From: Candidatus Melainabacteria bacterium
Lineage (GTDB): Bacteria > Cyanobacteriota > Vampirovibrionia > LMEP-6097
Direction of reading: 5' to 3'
Assembly (NCBI GenBank): GCA_018695135.1
Contig: JABHOV010000082.1
Coordinates: 1 to 48,086 of the forward strand
DNA: 48,086 bases
This document shows, in pieces, positions 14,347 through 47,951 of this stretch; the first letter of the stretch is position 1, and every line of letters begins with the position of its first letter. The notes beneath the pieces were generated by a model. The model did no database searches and had not been told where the DNA came from. It saw nothing but the letters and a program-made list of their open reading frames with translations. Position numbers and translations under genes: made by a program.

Positions 14347-14634
14347 ATGAAACAACCAGTCATCTATATTATGACAAGCCAATCTCATGGCACACTCTAT
14401 ACGGGTGTTAGTTCTAACCTTATTAGAAGGGTCTATGAGCACAAGTCTTCTACTTTTAATGGATTCAGTTCTAAATACCACTGTACAATTCTTGTCTATT
14501 TTGAGTTGTGTAGCAGTATACAATTAGCCATTGAACGTGAAAAACAAATTAAAGCCGGTTCTAGATCAAAAAAAATCAAATTAATTAATTCAGTAAACCC
14601 AGAATGGAAAGATCTCTATAGAGATCTTGTTTAG
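14347..14634 (+). CDS. GIY-YIG nuclease superfamily protein (YhbQ-like)
   Basis: The 95-residue protein is a single GIY-YIG domain. YIMTSQSHGTLYTGVSSNL contains the two strand motifs (here YIM and YTG in place of GIY and YIG), followed by RRVYEHKS with the conserved Arg and then Tyr-His/Glu. The later Glu in IEREKQIKAGSR would bind the metal. Small proteins of this type are common; their role is unclear (DNA repair or mobile-element associated). The gene is bracketed within 12 nt upstream and 30 nt downstream by GTCATTGCGAG palindromes, and may travel with them. Confidence 0.9.
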   Translation: MKQPVIYIMTSQSHGTLYTGVSSNLIRRVYEHKSSTFNGFSSKYHCTILVYFELCSSIQLAIEREKQIKAGSRSKKIKLINSVNPEWKDLYRDLV

Positions 14635-19912: not shown

Positions 19913-21706
19913 ATGTCCATACAAAGCAAAACCAGGGTATTTTCAATCATTGCCCATATAGACCACGGTAAATCGACACTCGCTGATCGTTTACTAGAAT
20001 TTACTGGCACGATTTCCAAGCGCGATATGCAAGCACAACTCATGGACACCATGGATATTGAGCGAGAGCGCGGCATCACCATCAAGCTCAACATGGCAAG
20101 GATGGAATACAAAGGCTATATTCTTAATTTAATTGACACACCTGGTCACGTTGATTTCACTTACGAGGTCTCTCGCTCACTGGCTGCTTGCGAAGGTGCG
20201 TTATTAGTGGTTGACGCCAGTCAAGGAGTAGAAGCACAAACACTCGCCAATGTCTACTTGGCATTAGAGCATGATCTTGAGATTATTCCAGTACTTAACA
20301 AAGTAGACCTTCCGAGTGCGGACGTTGAAAGAGTCAAACAAGAAATCGAAGAAATAATTGGACTTGATTGTTCTAACGCCATTGAAGTTAGTGCCAAAAG
20401 CGGCTTGAATATCGATCTACTGCTGGATGCAATCATAGAAAGGATCCCAGCTCCCAAGGGAGATATCAACAAACCACTTAAAGCGCTTGTATTTGATAGT
20501 TACTATGATTCTTACTTAGGCATCGTTGCTTACGCTCGTATCATAGAAGGTCAAGTCAAACGACTTGAAGATATCAAATTTATACAAAGCGGCAAGAAAT
20601 ATCAAGTCACAGAACTTGGCTACCGCAATCCAGGTAAAGTAGAAACACAATCTCTTCAAGCCGGCGACGTTGGTTATATCGCTTGTTCAATCAAAGAGAT
20701 TCTCAGCATCGTCGGAGATACTATTACCACTGTCGAGAATCCAACTCAAGAAGCGATACCTGGTTACAAGGCAGTATCGCCTGTAGTCTTTTGTGGTCTT
20801 TATCCTGTGGATAATAAAGAATATGAAGATCTTAGAGATGCATTAGAAAAACTCAAACTCAATGACAGTTCTATAAGTTTTGAACCAGAAAGTTCAAAAG
20901 CCTTAGGTTCAGGTTATCGTTGTGGTTTCCTTGGCTTGCTTCATATGGAAGTCGCTCAGGAAAGGCTAGAGAGAGAATATAATCTCAATTTGATTACCAC
21001 AGCACCAAGTGTAATTTACAAAGTACACAAGATCAAAGGTGAAATTATCGACATTGATAATCCAAGTAATTTACCTGATCCAACTCAAATAGATTTTATT
21101 GAAGAGCCTTACGTTACCTTAAATATAATGCTACCGCAAGAGTATGTTGGTGCCATCATGGAGCTTTGCCAAGATCGTCGTGGCATCTACAAAGACATGG
21201 CACACCTCAATGTCGGCAGCGTCGCTTCGCGTACCAAGTTGCATTATGAGATTCCACTTTCTGAAATCGTAACTGATTTCTTTGATCACCTTAAATCAAG
21301 ATCAAAAGGTTACGCAACGATGGACTATGAAGTTTGCGGCTACAAAAGAAACAAGCTCGTCAAAATGGATATTTTACTTAATGCCGAAAAAGTTGATGCA
21401 CTTTCAATTATTGTTTTTAACGAAAGCGCTCATGGTATCGGTTCTAAATTAGCCAAAAAACTCAAAGAGGTAATCCCACCTCATTTGTTTGAAGTGCCAA
21501 TTCAAGCTGCTATTGGTGGCAAGATAGTCGCCCGCGAAACAGTAAGAGCCCAACGCAAGGATGTAACTGCCAAGTGTTACGGTGGTGATATCAGTCGTAA
21601 GAAAAAATTACTTGATAAGCAGAAAAAGGGTAAAAAACGCATGAAGAACGTTGGCTCAGTTGAATTGCCGCAAGAAGCCTTTATGGCGATTTTAAAATTA
21701 GATTGA
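19913..21706 (+). CDS. lepA: Elongation factor 4 (LepA) GTPase
   Basis: The full-length 597-residue translational GTPase has G1 AHIDHGKST (residues 14-22), the switch I region RERGITIK, G3 DTPGHVDF, G4 NKVD and G5 SAKSG. The LepA-specific C-terminal domain ends in [20 protein letters not shown] and GKKRMKNVG, the Lys-rich CTD that contacts the P-site tRNA. LepA assists ribosome assembly or recovery of stalled ribosomes. The stop codon TGA is directly abutted by the arm of palindromic element E. Confidence 0.98.
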
Positions 21707-21969
21707 GAGTCTGTCCTAAAAGTCCCATCTGCTGCGTTACGCTTGAAATATGAATTACTTACTGGGCTTCCGTATCTCCATTATCAACTATGCGTATTCA
21801 ACAACCCTGAACATCTCCGGCTCAGTCAACTCAGCCATCACTTGCGTCGCAAGCCTTTCAGGGGACGGAGCCAGCCCTGGTTTCAACGAAGACACAGTGT
21901 CCCCCGACACATCTCCTAAAATCGCATCGCAATTTTGGAGATCTTCTGGAAGCTTTTTGAACAGACTCT
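21706..21969. repeat. Palindromic element, copy E (reverse orientation, enlarged)
   Basis: Terminal inverted arms AGAGTCTGTCCTAAAAG (21706) and CTTTTTGAACAGACTCT (to 21969) enclose about 260 nt. Read on the minus strand, it holds the motifs shared with copies A-D: GGCTTGCGA, GTTGACTGAGCCG and AAGCGTAACGCAG. A further hairpin CTCCTAAAAT / AATTTTGGAG lies at 21913-21939. The left arm starts on the last base of the lepA stop codon. Copies A-D are 121-127 nt, so this one is roughly twice as long and may be a composite. Confidence 0.65.
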
Positions 21970-21980
21970 ATAATGAAGAC

Positions 21981-22000
21981 TCACAAATTTGTGATATAAT
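21981..22000 (+). promoter_or_regulatory. Palindromic operator and -10 box of the RHH gene
   Basis: A perfect 14-bp palindrome TCACAAATTTGTGA (21981-21994) directly joins TATAAT (21995-22000). A palindrome touching the -10 box is what an autoregulating ribbon-helix-helix protein would bind. The downstream gene encodes such a protein. Confidence 0.65.
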
Positions 22001-22006
22001 TAAAGT

Positions 22007-22060
22007 ATGTACATCGTAAGTACGAATGTCTCCAAGGCAGACCTTGTTGATAGGAAATGA
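22007..22060 (+). CDS. Leaderless 17-codon upstream ORF coupled to the RHH gene
   Basis: The ATG at 22007 lies 6 nt after the TATAAT, the leaderless distance seen at many genes here. It encodes MYIVSTNVSKADLVDRK and its TGA overlaps the ATG at 22057 (ATGA). The layout would let ribosomes load on the leaderless mini-ORF and restart at the RHH gene. It could instead be the remnant of a lost partner gene. Too short to assign a family. Confidence 0.4.
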   Translation: MYIVSTNVSKADLVDRK

Positions 22061-22290
22061 GAAAAATGCGCAAAGAATACAACTTAAAAGACATGAAATT
22101 CAAATCAAACCCATACGTCAGCAAACTCAAAAAAAGCGTAACTATTAGACTTGATCTTGATGTCATTGAGTACTTCAAAAATCTATCCACTGAGCTGGAC
22201 ACTCCATATCAAACATTGGTCAATGATTACCTCAAAAACTGTAAAGATCAGAAGCTTATACCAAAGACAATATGGAAAAAGATGGCTTAA
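22057..22290 (+). CDS. Ribbon-helix-helix (BrnA/CopG-like) antitoxin-type regulator
   Basis: The 77-residue protein has NPYVSKLKKSVTIRLDLDVIEYFKNLSTE, where SVTIRLD is the DNA-contacting strand, and TPYQTLVNDYLKNC as the second helix. This is the pattern of CopG/BrnA antitoxins. A possible alternative start is the ATG at 22066. No toxin gene of the expected size lies beside it: upstream is a palindromic element and the 17-codon ORF, downstream is the giant ATP-grasp gene 33 nt away. It may be an orphan antitoxin or a specific repressor; the adjacent palindrome suggests self-regulation. Confidence 0.8.
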   Translation: MRKMRKEYNLKDMKFKSNPYVSKLKKSVTIRLDLDVIEYFKNLSTELDTPYQTLVNDYLKNCKDQKLIPKTIWKKMA

Positions 22291-22323
22291 TAGCCAGCCT
22301 TGCTATAGAATGAAGCTAGCGAT

Positions 22324-25300
22324 ATGCTTGAGCTATACATATTTAACAAAGAGAACCAAACAAAAAACGGCTTAAGTCGTTGGGATGAAAACGATTCTGC
22401 GGCAACGACCAATCTAGTTAGTTTCAACCTTGATAAATTCAAAGTTAAAGATGGCTCGGACAATCTCTGCACTGAATTAATCGGCGAACTTAACAGACTC
22501 TATAAAGAAAGTGACGAGTTTCAAAACTATTTCAACAAAGTCAACAGTAAACAAATTGATGTTGAATTTAGAGATGACTATCATCACTTATTAATTTATG
22601 ACTCGATCAACAACAAACTAATCCTTGACTCCAAGATAGTCAACCAATTTACTCCTATTTATTTCTGGGCTTTTTATTACGCGCTCGCAAGACAGAACCA
22701 AACTGAAGACTTGATTTATCAAGAGATGTTTGAATTTTTCTCTTGTTTTGATTTCAGGTTAATTGATTCAGCTATCAAGTTCCTAGAAAGGGATAGAGAA
22801 GGGACCAAGAGCTTTGATGCTGGTTCATATTTATTGAATTACCTTAAGACGGTCTTTGAAAAAATCACCAAGGGCACTGAGGCAGATGGCTATTTAGCCA
22901 CGCAACTACTGCGCAATAGAGCTCTTGCCGGCAGATTGCCATACAAACTAAGTGAGTTTGAAGCAATCTTGAATAAATACGCCAATGACGACCCTTTCTC
23001 TGGTGAAGCCTGCCAAGAATATTTTGACAGCTTCAATACTAACTACGATCAAAACCATGCCAAGATTTATTACAAACACTTACTGTCTTCTCTCAAAAAG
23101 ATTGGACTCAAAACCATTGCCCAGCGCGGTTCTCGCGTTGCTCATGAACAAGGACCAATCCTCGTCAACGCTACTAGTATAATAATTGATCAAGACTTTG
23201 AATTGAGCCTGCGCAAAGCACGATCTTCAACCATAGAGGCAATCTCCAAACTTGAAGATGCTGCAAACAAATTCTTCAAACTAAGTGCTGACTTTGAATT
23301 AGACAAAGACAAACAAGAACTCAAATCACTATTTGCCGCCAAGCTACTTAATATCAATCTAGACTTAGACAACCTACTCTATCTATCCAAGTCCAACTCA
23401 CCGAAGGCTCGCTTTCTCAAGTCAGTCAACGAGTTTCGTGACAATATATCAAGTTACAGCACAAGCTTACTGCAACATGCCAGAAATAATCCAAACAAAG
23501 AAGCTTGCATCAATTTTCATGACGCAGTAAGAATCCAAGAAAAGAACTTACTCTCAATAATTTTTGACTTAAATCAATTACTAGAAGCAAGCACTCAAGA
23601 AAAAGCCAACTCAGTAGTCTACATTCAAAGACCAAGCTCAAGATCAGGTCACTTTATTGCAAGACTCTTGCTGGGACAAAAACTCTATATCGAAACGGAC
23701 AAAGAATCAGAGAAGCACAGACTTAATGGTATTCCTTACAACTTTGTCAGTCCTGATTTTGATCTAGTAGCTAGTGGTCTTGATTCATTCTTTGAAAACG
23801 CCTCCATCTCAGTTGTTACAGATAGACAAAGCGGCAAGCCTGATATCAAGTGGGAAAACGCTGAGGATCTAGCTATTAGTCTTGCACCTGGAATGTACGA
23901 GGCTATCAAAGCGGCTCAAAGCCAAGGCAAAAACTTCCACTATCAACTTGAAACTACTTTACTTGGTCCATTGATTGAGATCTTCTTAGCGATCCTGGAA
24001 AATGAAATCAGCAATGTCGCCAGCATAGAAACAGACAATCAATACAAACATGGTCTTAGTCTGGATAATTTATTTTCTGCAAGTGAAACCAAAGCCAAAA
24101 ACCCTGAGCTAGAAAAAATCATCCTTGGCTACCAGAAAGAAATTAATGGAGCTGCTGATTTTTGTTTCAAGTACTACCTGCTTGAGGACGAGGTACAGAG
24201 CTATATGCTGCAAGAAGGCTTAGATCGCCAGCAAGCTAGCCAAGAACTACTACTCAATCTATACGACGTGCAACGAGACGTTGCCAAGTATTGCTTACTC
24301 AAAAAATCACCTGAGCATGCTTCTGAGCTTTTCACTCAATTCAAGACTTGGTCAGAGGCAATAATGTCAGACGAGAAGCTCTCAGCGAAAGACAAAGCTG
24401 ATCAAATCAGCCAAAGACTCAATGAATATATCGAGAATTCAGCAGCCAAGATCTTTGTCAAAAAATATATTAGATACCCAGAATCAACAGCCCGCAAGGA
24501 ATACCTTGAAGCCAACCCTCAAATCAACAGAATCAATATCACCAGCAACAAATCCATCAAAGATGCAGATTTCTATTTTGATCTAAGTGTTGCTCCTAGT
24601 CGTATTGATTTTGGTAAACACGTAGTAGCTTCGATCACGACCATTATGGGCAGGATGATTGGCGCCAACGACCCAGAAGCACTTATCAAAGCCAAAGAAT
24701 ACATTGACTTTGTTTCACAAACTCAAAACAGCATTTTTGAATCTGCTGCTGAAGCTGGTTCAGTCAAAGTGATTGAAAACACTTGCAGGGCAATTCAATA
24801 CTCCAAAGCGATTTCTTTTCAAGGTGTTTTTCAGTCCTTTGCAATTGACGGGGCGCTAGCAAGATCTACCATCAACTCCCGTAACGACAAAGCCTCTGGC
24901 TTGCATGTCATGGAATACGGCACTATGGCTTCTACCGGTTATTGCATCACCAAAGAGCCGCTATTTATTTTACTAGGACTTGCAATTAAGTCAGATACTC
25001 TTTTTGATTACCTTGGAGTAGAAACTGAAGAAGCCAGAAACGAATTACGGTCAATCATGGCAGAACTAATGGAGCTACGCACCAGTTTCAGCTCGGACCT
25101 TGATTGGCAAATGCATATCTACCAAGAGATGGCAGAATCCAAAACCATCCAGAAATACCTGGCAAATCCAGACTATAAATGGCTTCCCAACCTCAAGTCT
25201 ATCTTTGCATTATTTAAATATCTAGCGGATTACGGCACTGAAGACCAAATGATGTCTCGTACTTATGCTCAGCTCTCTGCCAAGCTTATCGAATACTCAA

Positions 25301-28300
25301 GAATCATCAACGAAACCGGAATCATTCAACGTATTCAATTAATGAACTCTGCAATCAAAAGAGCCAAAAACAATAATCCTCAGTGTAAGGATTATAAGGA
25401 CCTGGTTATTGCACTTAACGCTTCTTACAAGGGTAATGTCTCTGACGAAAGAGAAAATGCCAATCAATACTTAATAGCGTTTATTCTTCAACAAAAACAA
25501 TATATCAAAAATACTTCTTTGCCTGAAATCGACATGCTCATAGAGCACCAAATCAAAAACTATCCTCTACCCAAAGAGATTAGAATTTATGATCCACTTG
25601 TCGATCCGCAAACCTTTATGGGCGGGGAGCTTGAGGCAAGAGCAGAATCAGCAATCCAAAAAATTGTAACACTTGAATTAGACCCTCCTTTGACAAGAGA
25701 AGTCATAGAAGCCTCAATTATTAGTTATGGTTCAGATTACAAAAGCTGGCGCCTCTTAAGCAAGCTACTCAAAACAGCCAAAGATCCTGCAGCAATCAAA
25801 GCCACTCTCGATGCAATGCAAGCAGACTTGAAATACCTTGAGACTTATAGCAAAGGCTTTTACAAGGATCCACTGATCGCTTATCAAGGAGTCGATGTCA
25901 TTCAACTCAACTCTGATCATGATCGATTAATTGAATTAATGGAAGAATTAGTTACAGTCAAAACCTTGATGCAAACAAACAATCCAGAATCAAGCCTGGT
26001 ATTACTAGACAACCCTCAACAAGCCAAAAGACCTCTATTAGACTACGACAAATCACTTGAATGGATGGCACTTGGCGGTACCGTTAGCTCGCATTTGATC
26101 TCTGAAGAAGTTTACGAGAGATGGAAAAATGAATTAAACGAATCGCAGTCCTGGGCCAAGCTTTATATCCAAAAACTACTTTATCAAGGACAACTCAAAC
26201 CTGAAGAACGCTCGCAAGATGATGCTTACCTTGAGATTAAGGCAAAGTGCTCTAGCAGTCTAGAGAAAATGAGAAGGGAAGCTGACCTCAAGCGCGACTT
26301 AATCATTCAAAAATATAAAGAAGCTCAAGAGATTGGTGTTAGTCACAAAACTCTCAAACGTTATAGCGAATGGATACTCACACTTTCCAAGCTCAATTCC
26401 CTGATTGAAGATGATGAACTTAACTTCAATGACTGGTTAGTCTTAGGTGGTAGATGGATTCTCAACGGGCAAAGCAAAGCTGATATTTATTTCATAGTAC
26501 AACTTTTTGATAAATCTCAAGAACTCAAAAACCTTGGCAAACATAGTTTCCAATTACTAGAGCTCTTTACTACTGAAGCTAAAGCTCTAGACATAGAAGT
26601 CAAAGCTCGCTCCATTGAAAATGCAGGCTCTACTAAAGAAGCTGATCTATTGGTCAGTTCAGCAGCTGACAGTCTTGAATATAGAGCTCAGTTAAGCAAG
26701 TCAAATCATTGCATCGTACTGCGCATGCATGAATTTAGCAATTACCAAATCCCCACAAATACAAACATCGAAAGGTCTTGGGACAACCTCGTGCTTGACT
26801 ACCTAGAAAAACTCAAGGAGGATTCAAGCCCAGACCAGCTCAATTTGATTTTTGCAAGAATGCTCAAGACACTGGTAGCCTACAGTGAGAGTCTCAGCAA
26901 ATTAGAACCACTACTAAAACAAGCAACAGATGATTTTTGTAGAATCAAAGAAGCAGACCACTTAAGCCTGACTCCAATATTTGGTGATCACCGTAAACAC
27001 AAAGGCGTCATTGGCAACCTGGCAGCGGCAAGTGAAGACCTTGCTCCTGTTTCTAAACTCTCAGAGATGTTTATTGTCTCGTATTTAATTATGCTGACAG
27101 CTGGGGTTGAAGATGAAAATGAAATCATTAACAAGCTAGCTATTTTCTTCGATCAATACCTCAATGTTCACGAAGAGGATTACCCACCTTATATTTTCCA
27201 TAGTCTTTGTGCTGGAGCCAGTTATGGCTTCAATCAAGACTACTACCTTGAACCAAACTTGCGAGCCAAGATGTTCAAGCTGGCTGCCAAGTCAGGAATG
27301 GATTGCTATAAAATACTTCAACATTTAATTGCTCGCAAATCAGTCTTAAAACATAGTTCGCAAGAATATCGCGATTCTATAATTGGTGATTATGACAATG
27401 GCATGATTGCAATTTGCTACCAGCAAGGCAATATTTGTATTGAAGAGCGTTTCTGGAGCTGCATGAGAGCCCTGCGTAATTTCATCCGCAATTACCACGA
27501 TAGACACCCGCTACCAATTGTAATCAAAGGAGCTGATGCCACGGTCTCCAAATTATTCCGTTACAAACTTGATGATAATTGCAAACTCAATTGGATTGCT
27601 GGTCTTTCTAATATCGGCAAACATTCTTGGGATCTCAATTGCGTTTTCAGATCACCACTCTTGCGTGACAGAATCAAAATCAATCCGAGCACTGCAACTC
27701 AATACATCAATATCTCAGTCTTTACTCCATTTTTGACAGAGAAAGGTGAGATCAAACAAATCTATACTTCATTTAGACCTGAAGTGATTGAAGAACAAAA
27801 ACTCGATTATTTATCAGCAACTGAAGGCTACCAAGTAAACGATGAAGGTTTTGTCCATGCAGTGATTAACCTAGAACCAGACATTGACATGGAAGCCAAA
27901 CATGAAGAGATGACCAAGTTACCACTGCGCCTACCTAAGCCAAACATCATCATGTCTGCGCACACTCACCCACAATATATCAACGGCTTTACCTTAGAAC
28001 TAGGTATCCCTGAAGTATGGTCTATGCTGAGCATGCAGCAGATGTATGCCAAAACCGAACTACCCAAGATTCTCAAACAAGTCTCACTAGAGGGTTTGGT
28101 GCAAATTGATTTTATGCACAAAGAGTTTGAATCAAAAAGCGACTTGGCAATAGCTTTGGTCGATAAACTCAAAGCTGCCAACTGTGACCATATTGATTCA
28201 TGGTTACTGAAAGCCAGTAGAGATTCTGGTGGAAGAGGTATTAGTGGTCAGGTAAGTATCCACAAAGACAGAGCTGATATTCTTGATTTCATTTTTGAAA

Positions 28301-29121
28301 AAACCAGAACTGATGATTTGGTAATGCAAGAATTCGTTCCCAATAATGCAAGAGCCTTTATTTTGCCAGAGTTTTTGACTAAGCTCGAAGATAGTTTCAT
28401 TGAAGCAGGCATAGCGATTACTAGAACAACTCCTTACGAGCAAATATTTTTTGCAATGAGAAGCTTCCAAAGTATCAGTGGTATCAAGGGTTATCTTTTC
28501 TCTGCCAATATTGGCGCTGTTACAGTTAATGCCGGTCAGGGAGCGAAGATGTTTTATGGTGAGCCTAGCTATATCATGCCACTTTATATCGCGGGCAAAA
28601 TCCAAAAACTCATGGATGAACAAGGTGAAGCAATACTCAAAGAAGCTATCCCAAAACATGCTCTTGAATTTGCCAAAACAAACAATATCCCCGTTGTCCA
28701 AAATCAACTTGGCAGCAGCAACTGTGTGATGCTCAATGGTTTATTTGATTATATTCCTTATGTCTACGCAATCCGCGACTCAAGACGCTATATCCTTAAC
28801 TGCAAAGACAATAGCAAAGGCGGCATTGACTACTCCTATAATTATCAAGGCGAAGAAACAATCCTACTTAGTGGTGACTGCCAAAAAGACTCCCTCGACC
28901 AACTTGAAAACCTACTTAAAGCCAGTGCCAATAATGAACACCAAGGTCCAGAAGAAATTATTGACATTGACCTTGCCAAAATTGAACTTAATAGTGGACT
29001 CGGTCAAGCCAACCTCTTACAGAAAGCAATCGAAGATATGGCTCCTGAGAATAGAGATGTGTTTCTTGAGTGGACTGAGGATCTTGGGGATATCAGCTCT
29101 TCGCTTATTGTGAAGAACTAG
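22324..29121 (+). CDS. Giant 2265-aa protein with C-terminal ATP-grasp-like domain, function unknown
   Basis: This is one uninterrupted frame of 6.8 kb. There is no signal peptide, membrane segment or obvious repeat; the first about 1850 residues look helical and acidic-basic, as in a scaffold. The C-terminal part resembles ATP-grasp ligases. W1960-K1963 (WLLK) would supply the ATP-binding Lys, SGGRGISG (1968-1975) the Gly-rich loop, and VMQEFVP (2000-2006) the hinge Glu. Then comes a candidate metal/substrate region, NCVMLNGLFDYIPYVYAIRD. A SAHTHP segment (about 1878-1883) precedes it. ATP-grasp enzymes join a carboxylate to an amine, thiol or hydroxyl through an acyl phosphate. A probable -10 (TAGAAT, 22306-22311) lies 12 nt before the ATG. 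The upstream RHH gene may regulate it. Substrate unknown. Confidence 0.8.
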   Translation: MLELYIFNKENQTKNGLSRWDENDSAATTNLVSFNLDKFKVKDGSDNLCTELIGELNRLYKESDEFQNYFNKVNSKQIDVEFRDDYHHLLIYDSINNKLILDSKIVNQFTPIYFWAFYYALARQNQTEDLIYQEMFEFFSCFDFRLIDSAIKFLERDREGTKSFDAGSYLLNYLKTVFEKITKGTEADGYLATQLLRNRALAGRLPYKLSEFEAILNKYANDDPFSGEACQEYFDSFNTNYDQNHAKIYYKHLLSSLKKIGLKTIAQRGSRVAHEQGPILVNATSIIIDQDFELSLRKARSSTIEAISKLEDAANKFFKLSADFELDKDKQELKSLFAAKLLNINLDLDNLLYLSKSNSPKARFLKSVNEFRDNISSYSTSLLQHARNNPNKEACINFHDAVRIQEKNLLSIIFDLNQLLEASTQEKANSVVYIQRPSSRSGHFIARLLLGQKLYIETDKESEKHRLNGIPYNFVSPDFDLVASGLDSFFENASISVVTDRQSGKPDIKWENAEDLAISLAPGMYEAIKAAQSQGKNFHYQLETTLLGPLIEIFLAILENEISNVASIETDNQYKHGLSLDNLFSASETKAKNPELEKIILGYQKEINGAADFCFKYYLLEDEVQSYMLQEGLDRQQASQELLLNLYDVQRDVAKYCLLKKSPEHASELFTQFKTWSEAIMSDEKLSAKDKADQISQRLNEYIENSAAKIFVKKYIRYPESTARKEYLEANPQINRINITSNKSIKDADFYFDLSVAPSRIDFGKHVVASITTIMGRMIGANDPEALIKAKEYIDFVSQTQNSIFESAAEAGSVKVIENTCRAIQYSKAISFQGVFQSFAIDGALARSTINSRNDKASGLHVMEYGTMASTGYCITKEPLFILLGLAIKSDTLFDYLGVETEEARNELRSIMAELMELRTSFSSDLDWQMHIYQEMAESKTIQKYLANPDYKWLPNLKSIFALFKYLADYGTEDQMMSRTYAQLSAKLIEYSRIINETGIIQRIQLMNSAIKRAKNNNPQCKDYKDLVIALNASYKGNVSDERENANQYLIAFILQQKQYIKNTSLPEIDMLIEHQIKNYPLPKEIRIYDPLVDPQTFMGGELEARAESAIQKIVTLELDPPLTREVIEASIISYGSDYKSWRLLSKLLKTAKDPAAIKATLDAMQADLKYLETYSKGFYKDPLIAYQGVDVIQLNSDHDRLIELMEELVTVKTLMQTNNPESSLVLLDNPQQAKRPLLDYDKSLEWMALGGTVSSHLISEEVYERWKNELNESQSWAKLYIQKLLYQGQLKPEERSQDDAYLEIKAKCSSSLEKMRREADLKRDLIIQKYKEAQEIGVSHKTLKRYSEWILTLSKLNSLIEDDELNFNDWLVLGGRWILNGQSKADIYFIVQLFDKSQELKNLGKHSFQLLELFTTEAKALDIEVKARSIENAGSTKEADLLVSSAADSLEYRAQLSKSNHCIVLRMHEFSNYQIPTNTNIERSWDNLVLDYLEKLKEDSSPDQLNLIFARMLKTLVAYSESLSKLEPLLKQATDDFCRIKEADHLSLTPIFGDHRKHKGVIGNLAAASEDLAPVSKLSEMFIVSYLIMLTAGVEDENEIINKLAIFFDQYLNVHEEDYPPYIFHSLCAGASYGFNQDYYLEPNLRAKMFKLAAKSGMDCYKILQHLIARKSVLKHSSQEYRDSIIGDYDNGMIAICYQQGNICIEERFWSCMRALRNFIRNYHDRHPLPIVIKGADATVSKLFRYKLDDNCKLNWIAGLSNIGKHSWDLNCVFRSPLLRDRIKINPSTATQYINISVFTPFLTEKGEIKQIYTSFRPEVIEEQKLDYLSATEGYQVNDEGFVHAVINLEPDIDMEAKHEEMTKLPLRLPKPNIIMSAHTHPQYINGFTLELGIPEVWSMLSMQQMYAKTELPKILKQVSLEGLVQIDFMHKEFESKSDLAIALVDKLKAANCDHIDSWLLKASRDSGGRGISGQVSIHKDRADILDFIFEKTRTDDLVMQEFVPNNARAFILPEFLTKLEDSFIEAGIAITRTTPYEQIFFAMRSFQSISGIKGYLFSANIGAVTVNAGQGAKMFYGEPSYIMPLYIAGKIQKLMDEQGEAILKEAIPKHALEFAKTNNIPVVQNQLGSSNCVMLNGLFDYIPYVYAIRDSRRYILNCKDNSKGGIDYSYNYQGEETILLSGDCQKDSLDQLENLLKASANNEHQGPEEIIDIDLAKIELNSGLGQANLLQKAIEDMAPENRDVFLEWTEDLGDISSSLIVKN

Positions 29122-29357: not shown

Positions 29358-29437
29358 GTCCCATTACAGCCTTAATCGGGACATCGATGTCCCGATTAAG
29401 GGTATAATAGAGGAATTAATGTCCCAATTGGGATTTT
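29358..29437 (+). promoter_or_regulatory. Operator-promoter of the Fic/HTH gene
   Basis: A perfect 30-bp palindrome occupies 29371-29400, centred on GGGACATCGATGTCCC. Only 2 nt separate it from a TATAAT -10 box (29403-29408), so it covers the -35 region. A second, related palindrome (GTCCCAATTGGGA, 29421-29433) covers the expected start of transcription, and a single GTCCC half-site lies at 29358. This arrangement predicts tight repression, probably by the winged-helix domain of the gene itself. The 29122-29357 stretch holds no gene that I can see. Confidence 0.8.
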
Positions 29438-47779: not shown

Positions 47780-47871
47780 AGAGACAGCGAAGCGCATGCA
47801 GGGAATGAAACGACCGCAAACAGGCACTTTGTGCCGCATGCGCAAGAAAGCAATTAATTGCTTTCTTGCTT
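47780..47871. repeat. Hairpin array related to the GGTTGCGG family, beside tRNA-Val
   Basis: It contains GACAGCGAAGCGCATGCAG, GACCGCAAACA, the hairpin GGCAC-TTT-GTGCC (47823-47835), GCATGCG, and a perfect 12-bp stem CAAGAAAGCAAT / ATTGCTTTCTTG (47843-47868). It ends 5 nt before the tRNA. The motifs match the inverse-orientation halves of the arrays after ribBA and hpt. The 47595-47779 stretch holds nothing else I can support. Confidence 0.7.
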
Positions 47872-47875
47872 AGAA

Positions 47876-47951
47876 GGACGATTGGCTCAGTTGGTAGAGC
47901 ACCTGCTCGACATGCAGGGGGTCACTGGTTCAAGTCCAGTATCGTCCACCA
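47876..47951 (+). tRNA. tRNA-Val (anticodon GAC)
   Basis: A 76-nt cloverleaf with the CCA end encoded. The acceptor stem is GGACGAT/ATCGTCC with discriminator A; the D arm is GGCTC...GAGC; the anticodon stem CCTGC/GCAGG has loop TCGACAT, so the anticodon is GAC; the T arm is ACTGG-TTCAAGT-CCAGT. GAC reads GUC and GUU valine codons. The 48-kb edge beyond it (47952-48086) shows no gene. Confidence 0.96.

Follow-up and report, generated by a model that had tools for sequence, protein, structure and literature searches.

An orphan BrnA antitoxin gene that probably retains the control region of a lost BrnT toxin gene

The segment at 21981-22290 probably (we put the probability at roughly 0.8) derives from a BrnT-BrnA type II toxin-antitoxin operon that has lost the body of its toxin gene, with a 17-codon ORF left in its place. 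It lies in a 48,086-nt stretch of DNA that was analysed as a whole and is referred to here as the window. What appears to have been kept is a candidate BrnA operator in the form of a palindrome, an adjoining -10 element, a start codon 6 nt downstream and the antitoxin gene (Table 1). We favour a lost toxin because the RHH protein encoded here belongs to the BrnA family, no BrnT was found in the genome, the promoter-to-start geometry is shared with many intact relatives and parallel deletions of the toxin gene are seen elsewhere.

Table 1. Features of the putative brnTA remnant and of its immediate surroundings (window coordinates; a dot marks features given without strand).
Feature	Position	Strand	Basis and remarks
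MITE-like interspersed repeat	21706-21969	.	Repeat search; 17-bp imperfect terminal inverted repeats AGAGTCTGTCCTAAAAG / CTTTTTGAACAGACTCT; adjacent to the unit but outside it
Perfect 14-bp palindrome TCACAAATTTGTGA	21981-21994	.	Sequence reading; candidate BrnA operator
Putative extended -10 promoter TGTGATATAAT	21990-22000	+	Sequence
TATAAT	21995-22000		Adjoins the palindrome; followed by 6 nt to ATG 22007
17-codon ORF MYIVSTNVSKADLVDRK	22007-22060	+	At the place of brnT; stop TGA 22058-22060
SD-like AGGA for brnA	22052-22055	+	Fits ATG 22066, not ATG 22057
brnA (RHH antitoxin)	22066-22290	+	74 aa; start predicted by homology; alternative start 22057 gives 77 aa
Giant gene leader with TAGAAT box (22306-22311)	22303-22323	+	Read against G001 (L071, TAGACT) and G002 (L072, TAGAAT)

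The palindrome, the TATAAT, the 6-nt gap, the 17-codon ORF and its TGA were all found on reading the sequence as the initial annotation had described them, and so was the distance of 33 nt between the end of the RHH gene (22290) and the giant ORF at 22324. The annotation had further placed the RHH start in an ATGA overlap with this TGA. An in-frame ATG at 22057 does overlap the stop codon, but neither the relatives nor the spacing of the AGGA supports it as the gene start: most rows of the alignment to relatives of the window BrnA begin at Met4, which corresponds to 22066, and the AGGA lies 10 nt from ATG 22066 and only 1 nt from ATG 22057. The predicted start of brnA is thus probably 22066, which makes the ATGA overlap doubtful and turns it, in all probability, into a 5-nt gap.

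Neither the palindrome alone nor the 17-codon ORF alone is beyond chance. The window holds 7 perfect palindromes of at least 14 bp as compared with 3.98 +/- 1.99 (largest count 8) in 60 shuffles, and 34% of the ATGs in the shuffled window open at least 17 codons. The weight is carried by the arrangement of these features when compared with relatives. A consensus scan of 21900-22400 returned no sigma-70 promoter with both hexamers. Within the same interval no terminator-like site was found on the plus strand and one was found on the minus strand (22283-22296). The TATAAT of the window lacks a -35 box (best match 3/6 at spacers of 15-19), and no SD precedes the 17-codon ORF. The consensus of extended -10 promoters is TRTGnTATAAT, and the TGTG of the putative window promoter is supplied by the right arm of the palindrome. 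As this arm forms part of the promoter, repressor and polymerase would compete for the site. The window promoter may be weak or decayed.

The RHH protein matches Pfam PF14384 (BrnA_antitoxin) with 38.9 bits (cut-off 26.1) and Pfam CopG_antitoxin with 29.3 (cut-off 28). Comparison of P0001 with solved structures gave no meaningful match. BrnA matches at E<=0.001 were obtained in 9 of the 97 relatives searched, the own genome included. Identity to the window protein is 74-77% for the copies of G003 and G007, with 76% for both in this search, 56-58% for G036, G022 and G012, and 48% for G017; the matches in G008 and G040 are weak (E about 5e-4). Intact brnT is located directly upstream of brnA in G003, G036, G022 and G012, G007 carries a brnT with an internal deletion, and G017, which has brnA, gave no BrnT match. 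A search of the window's own genome, which is 93.9% complete, yielded no BrnT (PF04365) match at E<=0.01. The longer upstream partner gene that had been suggested as something to look for in relatives is brnT, found directly 5' of brnA in most near relatives, and the earlier description of an apparently orphan antitoxin-type protein agrees with the BrnA family assignment, with brnT upstream in these relatives and with a genome in which no BrnT was found.

The conservation of brnA fits a gene that is still under constraint, as judged from pN/pS and N-terminal identity averaged over both branches. Between the window and G003, pN is 0.126 and pS 0.81, values that are averages over both branches and not only over the time since toxin loss. 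Comparison of loci with a deleted brnT to their relatives gave a pN of 0.0 and a pS of 0.111 for L086 versus the intact L088, and a pN of 0.071 and a pS of 0.556 for L090 versus L089. The N-terminal segment of BrnA, the presumed toxin contact, is 70% identical between the window and G003 at 83% RHH identity, which is average for intact pairs (mean 70%, 199 pairs). In some other orphans the N-terminal segment is less similar to that of the closest intact relative (identity 0.35 in L119 and 0.52 in L130); L132 and L146 also score low, at least in part because their match starts were trimmed.

A scan of genome contigs yielded 140 relatives, and the best 80 of these loci were retained. Intact brnT was defined as at least 80 of the 94 model positions covered in one frame, using a BrnT profile made from nine seed sequences, most of which come from these same 80 loci. 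By this definition 57 of the 80 loci carry intact brnT, 16 of them overlapping brnA by stop-start according to match coordinates. No start could be assigned for four of the 57, and the comparison continued with the remaining 53 genes. We defined a -10-like hexamer as a match of at least 5/6 with A at position 2 and T at position 6, located 2-14 nt before the ATG. Such a hexamer precedes 40 of these 53 brnT genes from the best 80 of 140 loci, as compared with 8/53 for a control scan placed 25 nt further up, and it is found at exactly 6 nt, the spacing also seen in the window, in 22/53. Only 2/53 brnT genes are preceded by an SD of at least 4 nt, as against 35/53 for brnA. Palindrome centres in 52 promoters (one containing Ns was dropped) are concentrated at -18.5 (13 promoters), -13 (11), -7.5 (24) and -6 (7) relative to the brnT ATG, with 0.7 expected per centre from shuffles.

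The window palindrome is centred at -19.0 from ATG 22007, next to the family peak at -18.5, and a weaker palindrome is centred at -4.5; there is none at -7.5, the commonest centre in the family. A -35 of 5/6 or better is present in 18 of the 39 relatives with a -10 and absent from the window, and the TG of an extended -10 is found in only 2 of these 39, making the extended -10 of the window unusual for the family. An intact brnTA from the same class (L052/L174) displays the order TAGCTACAAATTGTAGC-TATAAT-6 nt-ATG. In the two closest relatives, G003 and G007, the TATAAT is located 32 nt before the brnT ATG instead of 6, and the ATG of the window could therefore stem from a deletion junction and not represent the old brnT start. 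When the window promoter segment was compared jointly with the brnT upstream regions of six relatives, the summed score was reached by 12 of 1000 shuffles. None of the comparisons with single relatives is decisive, the best being L089 (18/1000 shuffles), with G003 at 51/1000.

The geometry extends to loci collected around BrnT and does not cover the whole family. Of 14 starts assigned in BrnT-centred loci (L040-L069), 8 have a -10-like hexamer (5/6 or better) within 14 nt and 5 have it at exactly 6 nt, 3 of these 5 being also part of the 80-locus set. Four BrnT matches in these loci lacked BrnA according to a narrow profile built on one subfamily, which for this reason provides no fair test for orphan toxins. 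Among 30 more distant cyanobacterial brnA loci, 5 gave no BrnT match and 4 no assignable start; only 2 of the remaining 21 brnT starts showed near-leaderless geometry, and a TACAAT was often located further upstream, which limits the near-leaderless rule to part of the family. The pattern palindrome-TATAAT-6 nt-ATG has 9 matches, in 9 genomes, among 382 genomes of the class. Two are at brnTA-type loci, namely the window itself and G079, and at the other 7 the ORF that follows gave no BrnT match (four of these ORFs have at most 10 codons), showing that the pattern is not specific by itself.

Loss of the toxin gene is a recurrent event in these loci. Intact brnT is missing in 23 of the best 80 loci from 140 relatives, and 17 of those 23 miss at least 30 of the 94 BrnT model positions upstream of brnA (L086, L090, L094, L098, L119, L126, L127, L130, L132, L136, L144, L145, L146, L147, L154, L156 and L160). 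L094 is near a contig end, the brnA of L132 is itself frameshifted, and no brnT pieces were seen upstream of brnA in L098, L132 and L144. The other six non-intact loci (L087, L109, L121, L129, L133 and L152) contain stops, frameshifts or smaller truncations, defects that could in part be assembly errors given that metagenome assemblies make up most of the 80 records. L158 was counted as intact, with brnT about 550 nt from brnA. Relatives with toxin losses come from several bacterial groups. Two loci whose brnA is closely related to that of the window carry internally deleted brnT copies with different breakpoints (L086, 2838-3000; L090, 2901-3017). Of seven deleted or broken brnT copies in which the start was checked, four (L127, L136, L147 and L154) keep the -10 at 6 nt. 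Stubs with this spacing comprise 12 codons in L136 (Marinobacter sp. ELB17), 17 in L147 and 15 in L154; the L147 stub runs into brnA, and the TGA of the L154 stub overlaps the brnA ATG as ATGA.

By its letters the mini-ORF of the window is not demonstrably brnT, and the claim that it occupies the place of the toxin gene is based on its position and on the control geometry. Peptide and DNA comparison with BrnT revealed no recognisable toxin residues in the 17-codon remnant. The F-x-W-D of the BrnT N-terminus, present in the stubs of L136, L147 and L154, is absent from the window stub. We also considered that the mini-ORF might be the C-terminal tail of BrnT, as suggested by eye from IVST-NVSKAD and IISARKASLRE of G003. 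This assignment was discarded as unproven because shuffles score alike: against the BrnT C-terminal profile, the score of the mini-ORF is reached by 515 of 3000 peptide shuffles and by 259 of 1593 17-mers of the window that end at a stop, and at the DNA level the mini-ORF is not unusually similar to brnT 3' ends. An origin from the former 5' leader or operator of brnT, for which TACATCGTAA resembles TACATTGTAA of G003, gave no joint signal either (397/1000 for the sum), the best comparison with brnT upstream regions being L093 at 3/1000 alone and 42/1000 for the maximum over six. The idea that the mini-protein is the last trace of a lost toxin gene is supported by its position, by the promoter-to-start geometry and by the parallel deletions. 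Since the letters of the mini-ORF have no significant BrnT similarity, "trace" here refers to position and promoter-to-start geometry and not to the peptide.

The mini-protein had also been proposed to be a leader peptide, that is, a functional 17-codon ORF whose leaderless translation controls brnA by coupling or attenuation. We consider this very unlikely. Where the upstream DNA of relatives was read, it contained brnT, fragments of brnT or no identifiable feature, and of 204 loci examined only four have the initial 22 bases of the mini-ORF, all four being the window itself. Although the ORF starts 6 nt past a perfect TATAAT and ends beside brnA, and coupling is usual in the family as judged from the 16/57 stop-start overlaps, it has no SD, the interval 21900-22400 has no terminator-like site on the plus strand, an ORF of such length opens at about a third of shuffled ATGs, and the predicted brnA start has an SD of its own. 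The initial annotation had named absence of the palindrome and the mini-ORF where the RHH gene is conserved as a point against its proposal; as exact sequences, both were indeed absent from the relatives read, and this absence argues against a leader peptide and not against a lost toxin.

An unlikely alternative of a different kind is that the mini-ORF is a chance frame and that brnA was acquired without brnT and stands behind a promoter from a different source, in which case no toxin relic would be present. The -10-to-ATG spacing and the operator position, which match many intact brnT control regions, speak against this, with weaker support from alignment, as do the four other brnA loci that keep the -10 at 6 nt after deletion of brnT. 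A chance frame would nevertheless explain why neither the stub peptide nor its DNA matches brnT significantly, and it is compatible with a palindrome that alone is within chance, with the lack of a -35 and with the 7 places in 382 genomes where palindrome-TATAAT-6 nt-ATG occurs without brnT. Further, the control region might be part of the upstream interspersed repeat, which would then have given brnA a promoter. Even though the palindrome follows the repeat at a distance of 11 bp and another TATAAT is located at the edge of the repeat (21969-21974), we regard this as highly improbable. Outside the window, no match in the own genome extends past query position 274 (window 21973). Past this point a single 18-nt match, at chance level (E 1.2), lies within the window itself, the palindrome is matched in the genome by its own reverse alone, and two other TIR-bounded copies have different flanks.

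The first base of the MITE-like repeat completes the lepA stop codon, and the repeat shows no obvious target duplication. Searched against the own genome, 21700-22060 has 65 matches, complete or partial, at E<=10, of which 32 reach E<=1e-5, counting the window itself. Among the 30 loci scanned, TIR-bounded copies measure 264 bp (window), 176 bp and 127 bp. In G001, a genome of the same genus, the gap between lepA and the giant gene is 76 nt, with neither repeat nor brnA, and the giant gene is 90% identical over the first 500 residues. G002, also of the same genus, has an unrelated ORF between lepA and the giant gene (L072, about 885-1469), by eye a presumably thioesterase-like gene, which makes the lepA/giant-gene junction a site of gene turnover. 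In G003, G004, G006 and G007, lepA and the giant gene lie on separate contigs. No intact brnTA was found at the lepA/giant-gene site, G001 and G002 having neither brnT nor brnA there. The repeat and the brnA remnant would represent an insertion, or would have been lost in the sister genomes.

On its right side the extra DNA is bounded by the leader of the giant gene; this leader resembles that of G002 and, to a lesser degree, that of G001. As both G001 and G002 have the giant gene without brnA and with its own similar leader, the giant gene would not depend on the unit and is probably not part of it. The coupling of the control region to the giant ATP-grasp gene implied by the initial annotation is therefore not upheld. 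The giant gene itself (22324-29121) encodes 2265 aa and has no Pfam match above cut-off; the first 500 residues of its product were found in 9 of 9 family genomes searched, the own genome included, with identities of 39-90% for the remaining genomes. Between the giant gene and a Fic/DOC gene with a DeoR-like HTH match (29453), a 32-bp perfect palindrome at 29370-29401 is a candidate operator or terminator. Other perfect palindromes in the window are one of 28 bp just before tRNA-Val (47842-47869; tRNA at 47876-47951) and one of 20 bp at 14609-14628.

In the proposed brnTA remnant, transcription would start at ATG 22007 or a few nt from it, the stub would be read by ribosomes poorly or not at all, and BrnA would be translated from 22066 by means of the AGGA. 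The palindrome is the probable operator, where BrnA dimers would bind, cover the promoter and repress their own gene. Without a toxin to adjust repression, this would leave a plain negative-feedback loop holding the antitoxin low. Such a low level of BrnA might serve to neutralise BrnT arriving on mobile DNA (anti-addiction); otherwise the unit may be on its way to decay.

The unit is an orphan antitoxin of a familiar kind, most likely a brnTA operon that lost its toxin and retained the promoter region, and its interest lies in the wider pattern of repeated stubs and near-leaderless brnT. Orphan antitoxins are common and their origin is seldom visible, while the loci compared here form a series leading from intact brnTA through internally deleted brnT to stubs of 12-17 codons with the promoter kept. 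With such a series one can ask directly whether orphan antitoxins persist because they act as antidotes (anti-addiction) or are simply in decay. A further prediction from the spacing data is that in the subfamily brnT is often leaderless and brnA is not, which would be a simple way to hold toxin below antitoxin in a toxin-first operon. As a tentative and rather doubtful generalization, one broad subfamily might combine near-leaderless brnT with a normal ribosome site for brnA, and selection might repeatedly remove the toxin body from it and keep operator, promoter and antitoxin, yielding compact self-repressing antidote-only units with 12-17-codon stubs that are kept to neutralise incoming BrnT.

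Among the open-licence matches listed, no title concerned brnT stubs or leaderless brnT, which is no proof of novelty. The brnTA system and its autorepression are described in the parts consulted of PMC11980606 and PMC5086665; according to the latter, the BrnT-BrnA complex of Brucella binds its own promoter and lowers its own expression. As in Brucella abortus brnTA (PF04365/PF14384), the window has a BrnA-family RHH antitoxin in second position of the operon and a palindrome at the -10. It differs in having no toxin gene, a 17-codon stub and a short BrnA (74-77 aa). The leaderless passage seen in PMC5086665 deals with MazF, not BrnT. Leaderless mRNAs are reported to be predominant among Mycobacterium tuberculosis toxin-antitoxin pairs in the portion consulted of PMC3898074, where they were mapped by experiment, whereas leaderless transcription is predicted here from the -10 spacing; the family considered here is unrelated to those pairs, and its first gene is the toxin. 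Orphan antitoxins have been viewed as remnants of degraded toxin-antitoxin systems, as regulators or as anti-addiction modules (PMC7354431 and PMC12654330, in the sections consulted). The unit at 21981-22290 resembles the orphan antitoxins and anti-addiction modules of those sections in carrying an antitoxin without its partner, and differs from such orphans in that the probable promoter and start of the toxin gene remain and that parallel stubs show repeated loss within one family.
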